From the IMG/VR virus record IMGVR_UViG_3300025000_000053, positions 124,001 to 188,000 of that record: a DNA stretch of 64,000 bases; one strand, written 5' to 3'. Numbering within the stretch: position 1 is the first letter of the stretch; each line of letters opens with the position of its first letter. This stretch comes from a virus. Positions 5,694-56,093 of this stretch are shown here, one piece after another. Made by a program: the position numbers and the translations under genes. The notes beneath the pieces were generated by a model, which saw only the letters and a program-made list of their open reading frames with translations, ran no database searches and was not told the origin of the DNA.

Positions 5694-7820
5694 CTATTTT
5701 TTATTATGTTTCAACGACATTTTAGGAATTGTTCGTAATTTATAATTTTTAACTGCTTCTTCCATAAAATAGTTATGAATATTAAATCCATTACTTACAT
5801 TATTCTTTAATAAAGAATATTTACCTTCTTTATTCATAACATATGTGTTTACATTATCTTTAAAATAATATGTTAATATGGATAAAGCTTTTATTTTTAT
5901 GTTTTCTTCTTCTAAAGGAATTAAAATTTCTACCCTTCTATCTAAATTCCTAGTAAGTAAATCAGCACTTGAAATATAAATACCACTATTATGAAAATAA
6001 TACATACGACTATGTTCTAGATATCTACCTATTACACTTCTAATAGTTATATTTTTATTAATAGGTTTCATAGAACAAATTCCTCTACAAATAATATTAA
6101 TCTTTACTCCATTTTCAGATGCAAAGTATAATTTCTTTATTATATCTTTGTCAGACAATGAATTTAATTTTAATGTAATACATGTTTTCTTTTTATTTTT
6201 AGCTTGTTTAATTTCATTATCTATCAACTGGTATATTTTATTCCTTAGATTATATGGAGCAAAATATAACTTATTAATATCTGTAGATGGTTCAGAAAAA
6301 CCTGATAATATATTAAATATATGAAGTAAGTCTTCACTTATTTTTTGATTAGAAGTGAAATAAGACAAATCTGTATAAATCTCAGATGTTTTGTCATTAT
6401 AATTACCTGTACCTAAATGAGAATATAATTTTAATCCTCCCTTATGAGTTCTTTTAACAACAACTATAAATTTACAATGAGTTTTTAATTCATCCATACC
6501 ATAAATTATTCTACAGCCAGCTAGTTTTAGTTTCTCTATTAAAGATATATTTCTATTTTCATCAAATCTAGCTTTTATTTCTAGTAAAACACTAACTTGT
6601 TTACCATTTATAGCTGCTTTACATAAAGCTTCAACTATAGGTGAATCTTTTGATGAAACTCTATATAAAGTTTGTTTAATAGCAACAACATTACTATCAA
6701 TAGAAGCATGTTCAATAAATTTTACTATTGGATCAAAACTTTCATATGGGTGATGTAATAAAATATCATTATTATCAATGGCTGTAAACATATCATGTTC
6801 ACCTATTAATTCTTGTGGATATTGAGAATTAAATTCATTATATTGTAAAATCTGATTTTTAATTGGCATAGATATAAGAAATGAATAATCCAATAAGTTA
6901 TCACTTTTAAATACATGACTTTTATTTAATTTAAACATTTTCATCAATATCTTTATTACTTGTTTAGATAAAGTATCTGTCACTTCCATAAATATAGGTT
7001 CACTATATTCTCTTAATAATAGAGAAGACTTCATTCTATCAACAAGATAAATATCTTTATCATGTTCAATTTCAATATTACCTTCTTTTAAAATTCTCAT
7101 GCATCCTTTATTTAAAATATTTTTATTAACAAATATTTTATTTAAAAATGTAAAAACAATATCCTCAAGGAATATATATTTATTTATTTCATCGTCAGTT
7201 TCAACTTTGTATAATCTTTCAAGATGTTCTATTGGTATTATAGAAATAACTTGAAGATTCTTATTATATTTATCCTCTAATGATACAATTATATTTAATT
7301 GTTTTGATTTAATAGGAGGGAATTCTTTAGTGGTATCATATGACATTGGAGTTAAAAGAGGGTAAATATTTTTATTAAATATATTCTCTATATATTCTCT
7401 TTCTTTCTTTGTTAAATTATCATACTTACAAATATGAATATTATTCTTATTGATAATTTTCAATAAATTTTTATAACTACTATTTTGTAATAACTTAAAT
7501 TCTTTAATTGATTCTAAAACCTTTTCATATTCTTCTTCATATGATAATCCAGATATATCATTATTCCTTTCATTAATAACATTATTAACTAGAGATGAAA
7601 ATCTAACCATAATAAATTCATCTAAATTACTAGAAGAAATGCCTAAAAATTTTAGTCTTTCTAATAAAGGTATTTCATCTCTAATACTTTGGTGTAAAAC
7701 CCTTTTATTAAAATCTAACCAACTTAATTCTCTATTGATATAAAAATGAGATTTATTAAAAGAATTAAATTGTTTTATTTCATTATTTAATAAGGTTGTA
7801 AAATTATCAGTTATAATCAA
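5694..7820 (-). CDS. ppk1: Polyphosphate kinase (PPK1)
   Basis: PPK1 reversibly transfers the gamma phosphate of ATP onto inorganic polyphosphate in the cytoplasm. The 708-residue product is full length for the family (bacterial PPK1 is about 690-720). It starts with the N-terminal signature FYINRELSWLDFNKRVL, then LLERLKFLGISSSNLDEF. The C-terminal catalytic phospholipase-D-like half has YSHLGTGNYN with the histidine that is autophosphorylated in characterised enzymes (about residue 468), EHSRMYYF with the second conserved histidine (about 603), and the conserved LLTRNLDRRVE. No key residue is missing. The start is TTG, with AGGGGG 9-10 nt upstream. A promoter-like motif lies 42 nt upstream. 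PPK1 is uncommon in phages; a host-derived acquisition is likely but not visible in base composition. Confidence 0.95.
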   Translation of the reverse strand: MIITDNFTTLLNNEIKQFNSFNKSHFYINRELSWLDFNKRVLHQSIRDEIPLLERLKFLGISSSNLDEFIMVRFSSLVNNVINERNNDISGLSYEEEYEKVLESIKEFKLLQNSSYKNLLKIINKNNIHICKYDNLTKKEREYIENIFNKNIYPLLTPMSYDTTKEFPPIKSKQLNIIVSLEDKYNKNLQVISIIPIEHLERLYKVETDDEINKYIFLEDIVFTFLNKIFVNKNILNKGCMRILKEGNIEIEHDKDIYLVDRMKSSLLLREYSEPIFMEVTDTLSKQVIKILMKMFKLNKSHVFKSDNLLDYSFLISMPIKNQILQYNEFNSQYPQELIGEHDMFTAIDNNDILLHHPYESFDPIVKFIEHASIDSNVVAIKQTLYRVSSKDSPIVEALCKAAINGKQVSVLLEIKARFDENRNISLIEKLKLAGCRIIYGMDELKTHCKFIVVVKRTHKGGLKLYSHLGTGNYNDKTSEIYTDLSYFTSNQKISEDLLHIFNILSGFSEPSTDINKLYFAPYNLRNKIYQLIDNEIKQAKNKKKTCITLKLNSLSDKDIIKKLYFASENGVKINIICRGICSMKPINKNITIRSVIGRYLEHSRMYYFHNSGIYISSADLLTRNLDRRVEILIPLEEENIKIKALSILTYYFKDNVNTYVMNKEGKYSLLKNNVSNGFNIHNYFMEEAVKNYKLRTIPKMSLKHNKK

Positions 7821-8148: not shown

Positions 8149-8512
8149 TTTTATTTATTTGTAAAATATGACACCATTTAAAAAATCTATCACCATAATC
8201 TGTTGATATATTGACACCTCTCCAAGTAATTGCTTTTACAATACCGTGGTTTAAATTATTTTCATAGTTATAAATAACAGTATCACCTAAATTTATTTTA
8301 TTCCGAAGTAAACCACCACATCGTTCAATAATATGTCCACAATAAATATTTTTAATTATTTTATCTTCTGCAAAAGTTAATAAATCTATTTTATCTTCTT
8401 TTAAATTAATAAATAACGGTTTGGGTATAGATAAATGTATTTTTTTAGTAGAATTTAACTCTTTGATTAAATCAGTAAATTTTTCACCATACATAACTTC
8501 TCTAATTATCAT
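8141..8512 (-). CDS. Hypothetical protein, 123 residues
   Basis: Start chosen as ATG at 8512; a TTG one codon earlier is also possible. GGGGG lies about 10 nt upstream. No family recognised. The C-terminal half (residues 80-115) contains a beta-type LGDTVIYNYEN ... GIVKAITWRGVNIS ... RFFKWCHI segment reminiscent of a KOW/SH3-like barrel, which could mean nucleic-acid or protein binding. This is inference from pattern. Confidence 0.6.
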   Translation of the reverse strand: MIIREVMYGEKFTDLIKELNSTKKIHLSIPKPLFINLKEDKIDLLTFAEDKIIKNIYCGHIIERCGGLLRNKINLGDTVIYNYENNLNHGIVKAITWRGVNISTDYGDRFFKWCHILQINKND

Positions 8513-8581
8513 CAAGAATTTACCCCCTTAAATAAAAATATTAATTTAATGTATGTATTAAAATAAATTTCTATTTTTTCA

Positions 8582-8971
8582 TCAACTATAGATTCTTCCT
8601 TCTAAATCATCACTTAAAATTCCGTTTTTTAACCACCCATGATAACCATTTTGCCCTAAATGATTGATTGAAGGAGTAGCTGTTAAATTCGGTATTTCCC
8701 CTGTAATAATCCAACCGTGTTCTTTTCTTTTTCCATCAACCCCTCCACCAAATCTAGAATCAATTAACCAATGATGACCATTTGGTAAAACAATTATAAT
8801 CGGTAATCTCTTACCATACCAATCTCTAAAATATTCTGGAGAAATTATTTCTTTTTTGTAAACTTCAATTTCTAGTAAATCCTCATCACAATAAAACATA
8901 TCCCCAGGTTGTAATTTTTCACCTTTTTCTAACATCTCTTCATAGTTAATTAATCGGCATTTCCAAGACAT
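8582..8971 (-). CDS. DUF6527-like protein
   Basis: A 129-residue protein, ATG with AAAGGAGAT upstream. The C-terminal part reads GWIITGEIPNLTATPSIN, then YHGWLKNG and SDDLEGR. This G-W-x-x-x-G-E-x-P-x-x-T-x-x-P-S-I-N ... Y-H-G ... S-D-D-x-E-G-R layout matches, from memory, a small family found in phages and in bacterial ubiquitin-like operons (DUF6527). The middle has SPEYFRDWYGKRLPIII, also typical. The His and Asp residues could bind a metal, but no activity is known to me. The gene stands alone with spacers on both sides. Confidence 0.7.
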   Translation of the reverse strand: MSWKCRLINYEEMLEKGEKLQPGDMFYCDEDLLEIEVYKKEIISPEYFRDWYGKRLPIIIVLPNGHHWLIDSRFGGGVDGKRKEHGWIITGEIPNLTATPSINHLGQNGYHGWLKNGILSDDLEGRIYS

Positions 8972-9004
8972 ATTTTTTATCTCCTTTATATAAATAATAT
9001 ATTT

Positions 9005-10249
9005 TTACTTCTCTTCATTAAATCCATACACATCTAACATTAGTGTATTTATATATAAAGCATTAACATATACTAATAATCTATAAGTTGAATATATATT
9101 AACATTTTTTGTTATAAGTGTTAATGTATTAAAATCAATATCATATTCACCTATATCTCTATTTAACATTTTATTATCCATCATAACAGAAAATTTTAAA
9201 ATTGTTTCTAATGGAATACCATGAGTTAAACAATAGTCAATAGATGCTAGTATAGAGTTATTTAATACTTGTTTTATATTCATTAAATCAGGCATAGTAT
9301 CACTTTCAACTTTATATAAAGGATATGCATATAAAGTCCATCCATTAGGCATTTGTTCACTAAATAAATTATTTATTGTAAACATGGGTATTATTTGATT
9401 TTTATTATCAATAATCGACATATCAGTTTGTGTTATTATTCCTGAGGATTGTGTTACATAATAATATAAACCGGCTCCATTAAATTCTGTTGAGATTGTA
9501 AAAGTCGTAGCATATGAATCGGCAACCATTCCTTTCTTGTTACCATCATCAATAGCTAAATTAGAAAAAATTGTATCTATATTAACAGGATAAAATCTAA
9601 AAAATTCATCATTAGATGAAGCGTTCTTTACTTTATAAGTTACTGGATATATAGATACACTATTTATATAATCTAAAAAAGTTTTAATACTTCCATCAGG
9701 AGTATACAAATCAATTCCTATATCTTTAGATAAAAGTTCCATAAGCCCTCTAGGAACATAGCTTTCTAAACATGTTTCTAAAAAAAATGGTTTATCTTGT
9801 CTTATTCTATTCTTCAAATAATTAGCTTGATTTAATTGTTGTATTTGCGTATCTGTTACTATTGTTACATCAAAATACATTTTTATACGATTTAATAAAT
9901 ATTTTATATATACACCTTTTGTTTTATCTTCAATAAATGGTTGTAAATTACTAAAATCTATATCCATAAAATTATCTGTAATTCTAGTAGTTAAGTATGT
10001 TCCGTAGAGAAATGTGTCACTATCATCTAATTCAATTCTTGGTTTAATTATTAATATAGGTTTATTCTTTTTTATAAATTCTCTATTTGAGTTTTGAAAT
10101 ATATTGAATTGTTTATAAGCTATAGTAGAACTAATATGAATTGTTTTAAAATAATTTGGAACAAATAAACCTCTAACAAATTCTGTCATAAAAGAAGTGA
10201 TATTACCAAAAGTATGTGCTAAAGATGTTTGAGCCATAGCATATTCCAT
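9005..10249 (-). CDS. Putative virion structural protein
   Basis: A 414-residue protein, ATG with AGGAGG upstream. Not assigned to a named family. It has no membrane segment or enzyme motif, is rich in Thr, Asn, Tyr and Ile and has the mixed alpha/beta style of phage neck or tail proteins. It lies alone between terminators, a common arrangement for late jumbo-phage structural genes. The virion assignment is inference; mass spectrometry of particles would settle it. Confidence 0.7.
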   Translation of the reverse strand: MEYAMAQTSLAHTFGNITSFMTEFVRGLFVPNYFKTIHISSTIAYKQFNIFQNSNREFIKKNKPILIIKPRIELDDSDTFLYGTYLTTRITDNFMDIDFSNLQPFIEDKTKGVYIKYLLNRIKMYFDVTIVTDTQIQQLNQANYLKNRIRQDKPFFLETCLESYVPRGLMELLSKDIGIDLYTPDGSIKTFLDYINSVSIYPVTYKVKNASSNDEFFRFYPVNIDTIFSNLAIDDGNKKGMVADSYATTFTISTEFNGAGLYYYVTQSSGIITQTDMSIIDNKNQIIPMFTINNLFSEQMPNGWTLYAYPLYKVESDTMPDLMNIKQVLNNSILASIDYCLTHGIPLETILKFSVMMDNKMLNRDIGEYDIDFNTLTLITKNVNIYSTYRLLVYVNALYINTLMLDVYGFNEEK

Positions 10250-50456: not shown

Positions 50457-53400
50457 TTGATTTTTATTTCTGATATACCACATTTAAAAACCTATAAGCA
50501 AAAAGTTCTATTACCTAAAGATGAGAAGTATCCTAGTATTAATAGTGTAGTTTTTATTATTAATAATAACATACAATCATCTATAGGACTATTAAACCAT
50601 CAATTTATTAAGAATAATAACATGTATCATTTTTATTTTATGGATCACGTATATAACGGTAAATTATTTAATAGAACTTTTAGAGTTTTATATCGTAATG
50701 AAAGAAATGATATTTATAATAATATAGAAAAAGAAGTTCGATTCATACAAACAGTTCTAGATTTACATTCAGTAAATAAGAAAAATATATATGTTGATTT
50801 AATAAAACATAATAGTTTATTCTTTCAATTAAGTAAAAAAGTTAATTTTACAATTCGTATTAAAAATTATATAGATTATCTAGATAAGTTAATTAATGAT
50901 AGTCATTTTAATCAGTATAAGTATAAAACTATTTGTATTGATATTAATAGTTGGGTTAGTGATTTAAAGACTCAAATAAAAGGTAAATTAAATTTTGATA
51001 ATCCAATATTTATTATTTATTATTGTATGTATAAATACCTTGAAAAATTTAAAGAACTAGGGGATATTAATATTATTTTCTATACTAATGATAGTGTATT
51101 AAGATTAAATCCTTCATTATGTGATAAAAGCTCATATTCTTTATTTAAGAAAGAGATTATCAAAGCGTCTCCTAAAAGTTTATTAGATATGAGTGAAGAT
51201 AATATTGAAAAAGTACTAAAAAGAAAAGATGTTGCTGATAAAATAATAGGATATCTTAATGACCAACATAGATTTGTTGGTGATGATAAAACTGAAGAAG
51301 ATGAAAATTTTGAAACTAGTATTGAAGATAAAGTAGATGAAATAATTGATGCTAATAAGTTAGATAATAATAGTAATGATGAGATGTATAGTGAAGTTTC
51401 AAAAGTTATTATTAATGATGATGAAATTATAAAAAAAATTCATATGATGAATCAAGAGAATAAAGTTGGTAGAAGTACAGCTTCTATTAAAAGGGACGAA
51501 GAATTAAGAAAAAGACAAAAAGAGATAATAAAAGATAAAATAGGAATAGATAATATCTATGAAACTAATAAAGAACAACTAGATATTCCTAAATTTGATG
51601 TTACAGATAAAGTTAATACTACTAATAAAAATGTAACTACTATAAGATATCCTCAATTTGAAAAAGCTTATAATGAAGTTCTTCATGAAAAGGATTTACT
51701 TAATAATATAAAATTTTTAAATGAAAAATCTATTCCAGTTTATATTAGAGGTATAGAACGAGTTGATTCATCCGATGAATTAAATTTAAAAGAAACATAT
51801 ACTTTTGATTTAGAAGATGAAAATAGAGTTAGGCATAAATTAAAATTTGATATCCCTAAATTTATAGATGATAAATTTTTATATCTTGGTGGTAATAAAA
51901 AGATTATTATGAAGCAATTATTTATGAAGCCAGTGGTTAAGACTGGACCAGATGAAGTACAGATTTGTACTAATTACAATAAGATGTTTATTAGACGCTA
52001 TGGTAATAAAATATCATCTAAAATAGAAAAAATGAGAAAATTATTATATGAACAAAAAGAAGGTAAAGGTATTAAAGTTAAATATGGTAATAATTTATCT
52101 ATTAATAACAAATATGATACTACTATAGAATATGATGAATTATCTAAAAGCTTTACTTATATCCGTATAGGTAAAACTGAATTTTATTTTAATCAAGATG
52201 ATGCTACAAATATAGTTAAAGATAAAAAAATAAAACTTAATCAAAATGAATTCTTATTAGGTCTTATTGAAAATGGTAAAAATCCAATACCTATTACAAT
52301 TGATAAAAATACTCAAAAAATAGGCACATCTTTCGATATAGTTGACTATATACTTTCTATGTTGACACAAGGATTAGTGCAAGATTTTGATGATACTAAA
52401 AGTGGTAAGAAATTTGTTTACACTAGAGCTTATATAATGGAAAGACATGTTCCAGTAGTTTTGTTAATTTCATTCTTAGAAGGTTTATCTACAGTAATAA
52501 AAAAAGCTAATATTAAACATTATTTTTCAGATAAAAGACCTAAAGATATTACTCATAATGAGGGAATAATTCAATTTAGTGACGGGTATTTAATATATGA
52601 AAAATATCCATTTGAAAATTCTTTATTAATGAATGCATTTGCAGATATTCCAACTAAAACTTTCGAATATGGTGAATTTGATTCAAAAGATGTTTATTTA
52701 TCTTTATTTGATACTTTATATGGTAATAGGATAATTGGTAATGCCTTTCTTAACTCATATGAATTTTTAATTGATCCTATTACAAGAGAAGTATTAGAAG
52801 ATTTAAACTATCCAACAGATTATGTTTCTTTAGTTTTATATGCTAATTCTTTATTAGCAACTAATTCATATATTAAAGAAAATAATATGAATTTATATAG
52901 AATAAGATCAAATGAACTGGTTAATGCCTTATTATATAAAGAAGTTGCTAATGCTTATATTAAGTATAGAACTACTTCTTTAAATAATAATCCTGTTAAA
53001 ATTTCTGTACCACAAGATGTTATTATTAAAAAGATACTTGTTGCACAGACAGTCGAGGACTACAGCACATTAAATCCTATAACCGAAGTCGAGAAATCCC
53101 GTATGATCAGTCCAAAAGGACATTCAGGAATGAACCTGGATGAAGCGTATACACAAGATAAAAGAGCATATGATAAAACGATGCTTGGTATAATAGCTAT
53201 GTCAACTTCACCGGATTCATCGTGTGGAGTAACAAGACAACTTACATTAGAACCCAATATAAAAAATCCGAGGGGATATATCGATATAAATGACGATAGA
53301 TTAGAAATTTTAAAAGATGCAAATCTATTTTCTCCAGCTGAATTATTATCTCCTCTCGGAAATACAAGGGATGAACTTGCTATTGTCCCACTATGTAGAA

Positions 53401-56093
53401 ATATATAGTTAAAAACTCTTCTAATTGTCGGGGACATCCTTAACGCTCTTATTACCAAACTAATATAGTAATATATTAGTGGTGAAGGGTAATGCCTTAG
53501 GTATGGTAACAAGATAAGAGATTGGGTTATCCGCAGCTAAGATTCCTATAAATTTTATAGGAATAAAGTTCAAAGACTATCGAAAGCATGTTTATTATTG
53601 ATATAAAATATAATAAACAGAAGTGAGTAGAGTAGGGAAACCGAAACGGAGAGCATCTGAACACATAATGGTGAAGATGATGATATAGTCTGTCACTTAT
53701 GGAAATCATAGGTGGTTCCTGGATAGCATAAGAACAGCGATAAATAAAACTTGTCGCATTATCTAGTAATAGATAAATAAAAAATCTCCTTAATTGTCGG
53801 GAAATCTCTTAGAGCCTAAAACTACTAAGTTATATTAGTAATAATATAATGGCTTAGTCTAATCAACTAAGGTATAGTAATAAGGTTTTAGGATTGAGTA
53901 ATCCGCAGCTAAGATTCTAATATATTAGAATAAAGTTCAACGACTATCGAAGGCAAACTTATTATAGAAATAAAAATATAATGAGTTTGTTAGTAGAGTA
54001 GGGCTCAAGTGAGTTCTGAAATGGGAGACTCCTTATTATTTAATAATAAGGATGAAGATATAGTCTTATATCCTAAGGAAACTTAGGGAAGTTCATAAAA
54101 GAACTGCATAGATTAACGATCTATGTGAAATAAATGGAGTGTAAAACAATCGAAACATATCGTACCTGTAGTTAAACAATCACCAGTTTTATTATCTAAT
54201 GGAGTTGAACAAGTTATTCAATATCACTTATCTGATGATTTTTCAGTTGTAGCTAAAGATGATGGTGAAGTTGTTGAGATAGATAGTGAAACTGGTTTAA
54301 TTATTATTAAATATAAAAATGGTGAAACTAAAGTAATTGATACAAGTCCAAAAGTTGTAAAAAATGGTAAACTAAATGCCCACTTATATGGTGACATATA
54401 TGTGAATCTTCTTTAATTGTCGGGGAAACTCTTAGAACTTTTTATTATATAATAAAAAGATTGAGTAATCCGCAGCCAAGTCTCATAGTAAAAAAAATAA
54501 AGTTCATGAAGAACTCTATTACAAAGATATTGGAAAATTTTATAAAAAATCAAATACTCCATGGTATTTTATTGTATAACAAAGTTGATGATGAGTTGAT
54601 CTGAGTTCTTTTTTAATAATTTTAAAATCTATATCTATCAAATATTTCTCTAATAAGGGAAGTGTTTCTTCAATGAATATATTAAAAAGTTCTAAGTTCT
54701 TTTTAGCTATGAAAAAGTCACTAATTTTTTTGATATCATTATTATATCTTTTTAGTTCATTTTCATACCTCTGGGTAAAGAATTTTTTAGTTAATTCTAT
54801 CGATATAGGATTACAAAACTCATCACTTAACTCATTAATATTCCTCATTATAATATCTTTGTAATTAATTTCTCCTTGCTTCATTTTATTTATCATTCCT
54901 TTCTTTTTTATATTACGTAAATAATATATAAATGAAAAATAATGAAATACTATGAGAAAGGTTCAACGACTATCCCTTTGGCTTTGAAATAAGCAATAGG
55001 AGTAGGGCTCAAGTGAGTGGGTGAGAATCCCTTAAATCGAAATAGGAAGCATCCTTATGAGATGAAGATATAGTCTAGTATCTTATCGAAAGATAAGGAA
55101 GTTCATAAGAGAACTGCATAGATTAACGACCTATGTGAATATATATCGGCTGGTGGTTTCTTCTTATCAAATAAATTAACATGTAATTTGAAAGTAGGGC
55201 AAAAAATAAAAAAACGAGATATATTAGCTTATGACAGTAACTTTTTTAGTAATAGTAAATTATATGGTAATAGATTCAATATTGGTTCATTACAGAAAAT
55301 AGCGTGTATGTCCTCATACTCAACATATGAGGATTCTACTTTTGTCACTAAGAAATTATGTGAAGATATGGCAACTGAGATTGTTATGGAAAAACCAGTT
55401 GTCTTAGGTAAAAATGCTAATGTTGATTATATTGTTGAAATAGGTCAAAATGTTAGTGTTGGTGATGAACTAATTAGATTTGAAGTTTCTTTTAAAGATG
55501 AATCACTAAATAAATTTCTTTCAAATATTGGAGATGAATTAAAAGAAGAAATTAAAGCAATGGGTAAAACACCTATTAAAACTAAATACTCTGGTGTAAT
55601 TGAAGACATTAAAGTATATTCAACTGTAGATGTAGAAGAACTATCTCCAACATTAAAAAAAATTGTTAATAATTATTATGATAGAATTAATAAGAAGAAA
55701 AAAATTATTAATAAATATAATAAAAGTGATTCTGTATATAAATGTGGTATAATGTTAAATGAACCTGTAACTAAGATTGAAACTAAAGATGGTAAAGTTA
55801 AAAGTCATACTGTTAATTCAGGAGTTTTAATTATATTTTATATTAAATATAAAGATACAGTTGGTGTTGGTGATAAGATATGTTTCTTTACTGCTTTGAA
55901 ATCTATTGTCGGTGAAGTTATCCCTGAAGGATATGAACCATATTCTTTATTTAGACCAGATGAGAAGATTTCTTCAGTGGTTGCTCCAGGAGCAGTAATG
56001 AATAGAATGACCCCTTCTGTTATTCTATCAATGTTCGGTAATAAAGTATTGATAGAATTAAAACGAAAATTAAAAGATATTTATGATGAATAA
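50457..56093 (+). CDS. RNA polymerase beta subunit, four exons split by three group I introns
   Basis: Full-length beta subunit of the phage multisubunit RNA polymerase, about 1369 residues after splicing. Exons: 50457-53372, 53722-53741 (20 nt), 54140-54368 and 55149-56093. Exon 1 has the long N-terminal lobes and ends in MSTSPDSSCGVTRQL, NPRGYID and ELLSPLGNTRD. The joined sequence reads TRD-DSIRTAI-VKQSKHIVPVVKQSP, matching the conserved beta block around RTA-M and KQSKH. Exon 3 ends SPKVVKNG and exon 4 begins AGGFFLSNKL, then LKVGQKIKKRDILAYD. The active-site GDK block is VGVGDKICF and the C-terminal block GAVMNRMTPSVIL. It starts at TTG 50457. Its beta-prime partners are at 10833 and 22015. 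Confidence 0.93.
53373..53721 (+). ncRNA. Group I intron 1 of the beta gene
   Basis: A 349-nt intron. GGGAU at the exon end pairs with GUCCC (P1, terminal U-G), and GCUAUU just before it pairs perfectly with GAUAGC, the start of the next exon (P10). P2 is ACTAT ... ATAGT. Core pieces TAATTGTCGGGG, TATCCGCAGCTAAG, AAGTTCAAAGACTATCG and GATATAGTC follow. The intron ends in G. It is the most divergent of the four RNA polymerase introns. No endonuclease frame. Confidence 0.9.
53742..54139 (+). ncRNA. Group I intron 2 of the beta gene
   Basis: A 398-nt intron. GCGAU pairs with GUCGC 12 nt on (P1, terminal U-G). P2 is a perfect TTATCTA-GTAA-TAGATAA hairpin with a GNRA-type loop. The core carries TTAATTGTCGGG, AATCCGCAGCTAAG, AGTTCAACGACTATCG and GATATAGTCTTATATC. 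The end is placed at G54139, because this restores VKQSKHIVPVV in frame. Confidence 0.88.
54540..54896 (-). CDS. Antisense protein gene inside beta intron 3
   Basis: A 118-residue frame on the strand opposite to the intron. A ribosome binding site (AAAGGA) precedes two possible ATG codons (54896 and 54884). The product is helical and acidic to neutral and ends with LRSTHHQLCYTIKYHGVFDF. It has no LAGLIDADG, GIY-YIG or HNH motif, so it is not a recognisable homing endonuclease. It has its own copy of the phage promoter motif, 24 nt upstream. Function unknown. Confidence 0.65.
   Translation of the reverse strand: MINKMKQGEINYKDIIMRNINELSDEFCNPISIELTKKFFTQRYENELKRYNNDIKKISDFFIAKKNLELFNIFIEETLPLLEKYLIDIDFKIIKKELRSTHHQLCYTIKYHGVFDFL
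54920..54933 (-). promoter_or_regulatory. Candidate phage promoter motif inside beta intron 3
   Basis: Exact ATTTATATATTATT on the minus strand, 24 nt before the antisense gene. The bases next to it (TTTCATTTATATATTATTT then ACGTAATA) are nearly those at 10797. Confidence 0.5.

Follow-up and report, generated by a model that had tools for sequence, protein, structure and literature searches.

Comparative sequence evidence that two group I introns flank a 20-nt exon in an AR9-like jumbo phage gene for RNA polymerase beta

Results

Comparison with related genes showed that, in an AR9-like jumbo phage, the gene for RNA polymerase beta contains two predicted group I introns separated by a 20-nt micro-exon (GATAGCATAAGAACAGCGAT, 53722..53741). 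The window analyzed was a 64,000-nt stretch of DNA (positions 124,001 to 188,000 of virus record IMGVR_UViG_3300025000_000053); coordinates refer to this window unless a phage or contig is named, and features lie on the plus strand unless stated. We are highly confident that two autonomous group I introns, each with its own P1 and P10, were inserted 20 nt apart and that this spacing is a by-product of an insertion hotspot, with neither a dedicated mechanism nor a fixed splicing order. Both introns are presumably removed from the RNA.

The gene was assigned to the multisubunit RNA polymerase beta subunit on the basis of PHROG beta families, homology to phage proteins over its length, and the presence of the DDxxRxxM motif block. 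Its AR9 homologue is annotated as virion RNA polymerase, which suggests that this is the virion rather than the nonvirion enzyme. Exon 1 (50457..53372), for which the ORF list gives a putative TTG start, was defined by the PHROG beta-subunit families and by alignment with intronless homologues. It is followed by intron 1 (53373..53721; 349 nt, phase 0), which lies between two conserved Asp codons, and by the micro-exon, which specifies D-S-I-R-T-A plus two bases of the Met codon and lies in the DDxxRxxM block (E. coli RpoB, about residues 674-681), part of the active-site region of the polymerase. Intron 2 (53742..54136; 395 nt, phase 2) lies within the conserved Met codon. Exon 3 (54137..54368) was defined by alignment with homologues, spliced alignment, and the allele of the related phage L009, and exon 4 (55149..56093) by alignment with intronless homologues.

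The Rfam group I model (RF00028), for which the cut-off is 50 bits, gave scores of 61.0 bits at 53368-53713 and 60.4 bits at 53732-54088 and so exceeded the cut-off at both places. The Rfam alignment contained a long insert between P7 and the 3' strand of P3, the place of P7.1/P7.2 in group IA, without a helix assignment. Across the whole 249,853-base virus record, the model returned 16 matches, 12 of them above the cut-off.

The intron limits were derived by aligning the DNA, with splicing allowed, to a beta profile built without introns, under the rules that exons end in T and introns in G. In a first alignment, which gave no bonus for P1 pairing and penalized introns more heavily, the micro-exon went undetected, and the parameters were adjusted after that result. 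The second alignment, with the P1 bonus, returned introns at 53373-53721 and 53742-54136, giving the micro-exon exactly the limits proposed in the initial annotation.

Both introns could form a P1 with a U.G pair at the 5' splice site: GGGAU (53368..53372) is complementary at 5/5 positions to GUCCC (53385-53389) in intron 1, and GCGAU (53737..53741) pairs 5/5 with GUCGC (53753-53757) in intron 2. The pairing computation also revealed a P10 for intron 1, in which the intron strand GCUAUU (53379..53384) pairs 6/6 with the exon strand GAUAGC (53722..53727); a 6-bp run with this guide occurs at 0.27% of the G-preceded positions in the window, and this rarity, together with the recurrence of the 20-nt exon in a divergent genome (L040, below), exceeds what chance would give. 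These three helices had been proposed earlier and were recovered unchanged.

The downstream end of intron 2 required correction. The initial annotation had placed it at 54139, 3 nt too far downstream; an exon 3 start at 54140 was rejected by the alignment with intronless relatives, the L009 allele, and the pairing computation, all of which place the intron end at 54136. The conserved beta block that the earlier joined protein (DSIRTAI-VKQSKHIVP) was meant to restore is present, but that protein was one residue short and converted the conserved Met into Ile. When exon 3 (GAGTGTAAAAC) starts at 54137 with G-AGT-GTA-AAA (Met-Ser-Val-Lys), the junction protein reads TRD-DSIRTA(M)-SVKQSKHIVP (DDSIRTAMSVKQSKHIVP). 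It aligned without gaps with five intronless phage proteins, the kind of comparison with related beta subunits that had been suggested as a check, and it also aligned, again ungapped, with a bacterial RpoB of solved structure, including RDDSIRTAM, at a weak overall score. The 54137 junction further yields a 4-bp P10 for intron 2 (ACUU, 53749..53752, with GAGU, 54137-54140), adjoining P1; a P10 of this 4-bp length was not matched in L040, L037, or MarsHill. A Pfam search of the spliced beta protein did not recognize this part, and the two candidate junctions were indistinguishable in it. The last intron bases are G53721 and G54136; the spliced alignment presupposed a terminal G, so the L009 allele, which fixes G54136, is the one independent test of this feature.

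Natural alleles of the region were then compared among related phages. L009, which is 93% identical to the window over the upstream 358 residues, carries intron 1 at the same base, and its intron-2 site is empty, reading GCGAT/GAGTGT; its coding sequence runs unbroken through the second site as GATAGCATAAGAACAGCGAT directly followed by GAGTGTAAAACAATC. L010 (70% identity) is without introns throughout. L040 (63% identity upstream) carries introns 1 and 2, each at its respective site, around a 20-nt exon (GATAGTACAAGAACTGCGAT, L040 7115-7134) that is the same exon as that of the window. Because L040 shows the same arrangement, an assembly artefact is unlikely. In the P10 of intron 1, the sixth pair differs between the window and L040 by a compensatory change (C to T in the exon and G to A in the guide). 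The intron-2 site is occupied without intron 1 in L037, MarsHill, and PALS_2, and P1 of this intron covaries in the last two phages: its second pair, counted distally, is C-G in the window and G-C in these phages. The contig fragment L365 starts within intron 2 and has an identical acceptor. Searches for further copies with DNA patterns lacked specificity, and the 239 stretches that they retrieved included no beta gene. As read from the DNA, these alleles settle the predicted intron boundaries. The limits of intron 1 are those proposed earlier, with the site occupied in L009 and L040 and empty in L010.

The same alleles bear on whether the 20 nt form an exon at all. In favor of one large intron, the stretch is too short for gene prediction to recognize. 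However, two complete group I cores are present, omission of the 20 nt breaks the reading frame, and the direct fusion of these bases to exon 3 in L009 refutes the proposal, to which we give practically no credence. Nested introns (a twintron) were likewise rejected, since other phages have an intron at one of the two sites and none at the other, and this holds for either site.

We next consider whether the two splicing reactions would interfere with each other. The P10 of intron 1 occupies micro-exon bases 1-6 (53722-53727) and the P1 of intron 2 occupies bases 16-20 (53737-53741), leaving nine bases between them. The initial annotation had correctly assigned the micro-exon a part in both helices, but its bases are not shared in a manner that would force a conflict: the two helices use different exon bases, and their pairing is therefore predicted not to be mutually exclusive. 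A fixed splicing order, also raised in the initial annotation, could be argued from the location of both helices on the same 20 nt, and a steric clash of two such close ribozymes is conceivable. Against this stand the nine intervening bases and the related phages in which one site is occupied without the other (L009 for intron 1; L037, MarsHill, and PALS_2 for intron 2). With each site occupied alone elsewhere, the sequence implies no fixed order, and we consider such an order improbable.

Competition or exon skipping is possible because each intron's guide matches the 5' splice site of the other intron at 4/5 positions. The predicted exon-skipped product would undergo a frame shift and reach a stop at codon 985. 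These two features would suit a splicing switch, in which skipping (exon 1 to exon 3) alternates with inclusion and the truncated beta regulates the amount of functional polymerase; moreover, exon skipping is known for the tandem group I introns of Twort and SIOphi. However, P10 favors the proper partner for both introns (runs of 6 vs. 2 for intron 1 and of 4 vs. 2 for intron 2), and close relatives lack one or both introns, so the gene would not require a switch to function. A regulatory switch thus seems very unlikely, and we retain the reading of two autonomous introns.

To place the two introns relative to others, an intron tree was built from 288 columns with moderate supports, which leaves the insertion history uncertain. 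Intron 1 of the window grouped with the site-equivalent (site-47) introns of L009 and L040 (support 0.985), intron 2 with further introns from its own genome and from sister genomes, apart from intron 1, and intron 2 of L040 with intron 3 of L040. Introns 1 and 2 of the window are 66% identical over 337 aligned columns, as might be expected if intron 2 were a local duplication of intron 1 rather than a separate insertion. Intron 2 is nevertheless closer to a uvsX intron of its own genome (76% identity), and the tree separates it from intron 1, which joins the site-47 introns of the other phages. The tree thus argues against a simple local duplication, which we regard as having only a slight chance of being correct, and is compatible with independent gain or exchange within genomes. 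No endonuclease gene was found within intron 1 or intron 2 of the window.

The conserved block appears to be a preferred insertion region. Across related phages, introns interrupt the DDxxRxxM block at approximately nine positions spread over some fifteen codons, a count for which whole genes were surveyed in only some of the phages. The upstream part of the beta gene aligns in one unbroken piece in several of these phages, and therefore the choice of region searched does not by itself account for the clustering. In PhiPA3, a group I intron lies directly after the second Asp of the block, which its authors equated with E. coli D675 (PMC11620839). We confirmed this position; intron 1 of the window lies one codon upstream of it.

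Other short exons were found in beta genes of this group. The Staphylococcus phages AH12 and LY01 have a 24-nt exon between introns, and BpSp has a 33-nt exon, whose upstream boundary was shifted six bases by hand, restoring two residues. In AR9 and PBS1, an 11-nt exon was inferred further upstream than the exon of the window, and the AR9 gp188 record, which gives the gene in six pieces, agrees with it. The predicted micro-exons of the beta gene recur through different insertions.

Several side observations accompanied this survey. The 11-nt exon of AR9 (AAAGTTGGGGT, L011 6526-6536) lies between two group I introns. The beta genes of Staphylococcus jumbo phages contain 165-nt introns, candidates for unusually small group I introns (L024 4060-4224, L025 4057-4221, L026 4060-4224, and L017 6153-6317), which keep the core motifs GTTCAACGACTA and GATATAGTC and gave no Rfam match at E up to 0.5. 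In the virus record of the window but outside the window, a UvsX/RecA-like gene on the minus strand carries a 15-nt exon (GGTGGGAATGCACCT, GGNAP; record positions 85347-85361) flanked by group I introns of 356 and 348 nt. This exon is shorter than the 20-nt beta exon of the same genome, and BpSp UvsX aligns without gaps through its place.

Intron 3 (54369..55148, approximately 780 nt) was seen by the Rfam model as two fragments, and its boundaries are less certain than those of the other two introns. The 3' end of exon 3 was set by comparison with KNGAGGF of L010, and the resulting junction, KNG/AGGFF, matches this intronless gene; the spliced alignment did not fix this junction. An antisense ORF of 118 aa lies within intron 3 (54540..54896, minus strand). 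Its homologues were found only in introns of related beta genes, namely intron 1 of L009 (7300-7644), intron 3 of L040 (7815-8180), and L365. Four helices were predicted for the product. Neither PHROG nor Pfam gave a family match above its curated cut-off, the phage collection contained nothing similar, and fold searches gave no significant match. In L009, intron 3 instead contains a sense-strand HNH endonuclease gene (8285-9040, 251 aa), and intron 1 of L040 carries a different antisense ORF on its minus strand (6461-6904, 147 aa) without a family match.

Discussion

Our preferred explanation is that the two introns entered the DDxxRxxM block at points 20 nt apart, probably in succession, with homing endonucleases as the likely drivers of insertion. 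Each intron would recognize its own 5' splice site through P1, which has a U.G pair at the cut, and the exon on its 3' side through P10. If both introns are excised precisely, exon 1 and exon 3 would be linked through the micro-exon, and an intact beta subunit would result. The tight spacing would then follow from the intron-homing hotspot, making a dedicated mechanism or a fixed order unnecessary.

A broader proposal is that AR9-like and Staphylococcus jumbo phages have repeatedly and convergently acquired micro-exons between group I introns in conserved core genes (five sizes in two genes: 11, 15, 20, 24, and 33 nt), perhaps since an intron that inserts next to the homing site of a competitor shields that site or takes it over. 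We offer this suggestion only tentatively and consider it rather doubtful at present.

The natural series around one 20-nt exon, comprising genes with neither intron, with either site occupied alone, and with both, provides controls for the fidelity of tandem ribozyme splicing. The findings also indicate that standard annotation of polymerase and recombinase genes in jumbo phages will miss exons of 11-33 nt. The homing hotspot in this polymerase block includes the PhiPA3 intron, which has been studied experimentally.

Closely similar cases of a tight group I intron pair with a tiny exon are already known, and the comparative support in the present case is unusually good. The nearest is orf142 of Staphylococcus phage Twort, in which a 23-nt exon lies between two group I introns (introns 2 and 3; PMC10136302). 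The window shares with it an exon of a few tens of nucleotides flanked by two phage group I introns; however, the Twort gene encodes a tail tube protein rather than beta, its exon has 23 nt rather than 20 nt, and both skipping and inclusion were observed there, whereas the splicing of the window's exon is predicted from its DNA. The same report describes a 34-nt exon flanked by group I introns in the 23S rRNA of Coxiella burnetii, a likewise short exon, but in a bacterial rRNA gene, with introns of different subgroups and with skipping observed. In Bastillevirinae, a small exon in the rNDPL gene of phiNIT1 and exon skipping in SIOphi were demonstrated by cDNA sequencing (PMC11878797); these cases differ from the window in gene and phage. 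The mitochondrial cox1 gene of placozoans contains an even smaller group I micro-exon, explained there by the insertion of the second intron (PMC5436844); in contrast to the window, it is a single nucleotide between group IB introns of an animal mitochondrion and is supported by RNA sequencing. Among jumbo phages, PhiPA3 has the conserved DD block of its virion RNA polymerase beta gene likewise interrupted by a group I intron, but this is a single intron and it carries gp210, a functional HNH nicking endonuclease (PMC11620839). The related Bacillus phages AR9 and PBS1 resemble the window in having a multi-intron beta gene with a very short inferred exon of 11 nt, although their introns occupy other insertion sites.
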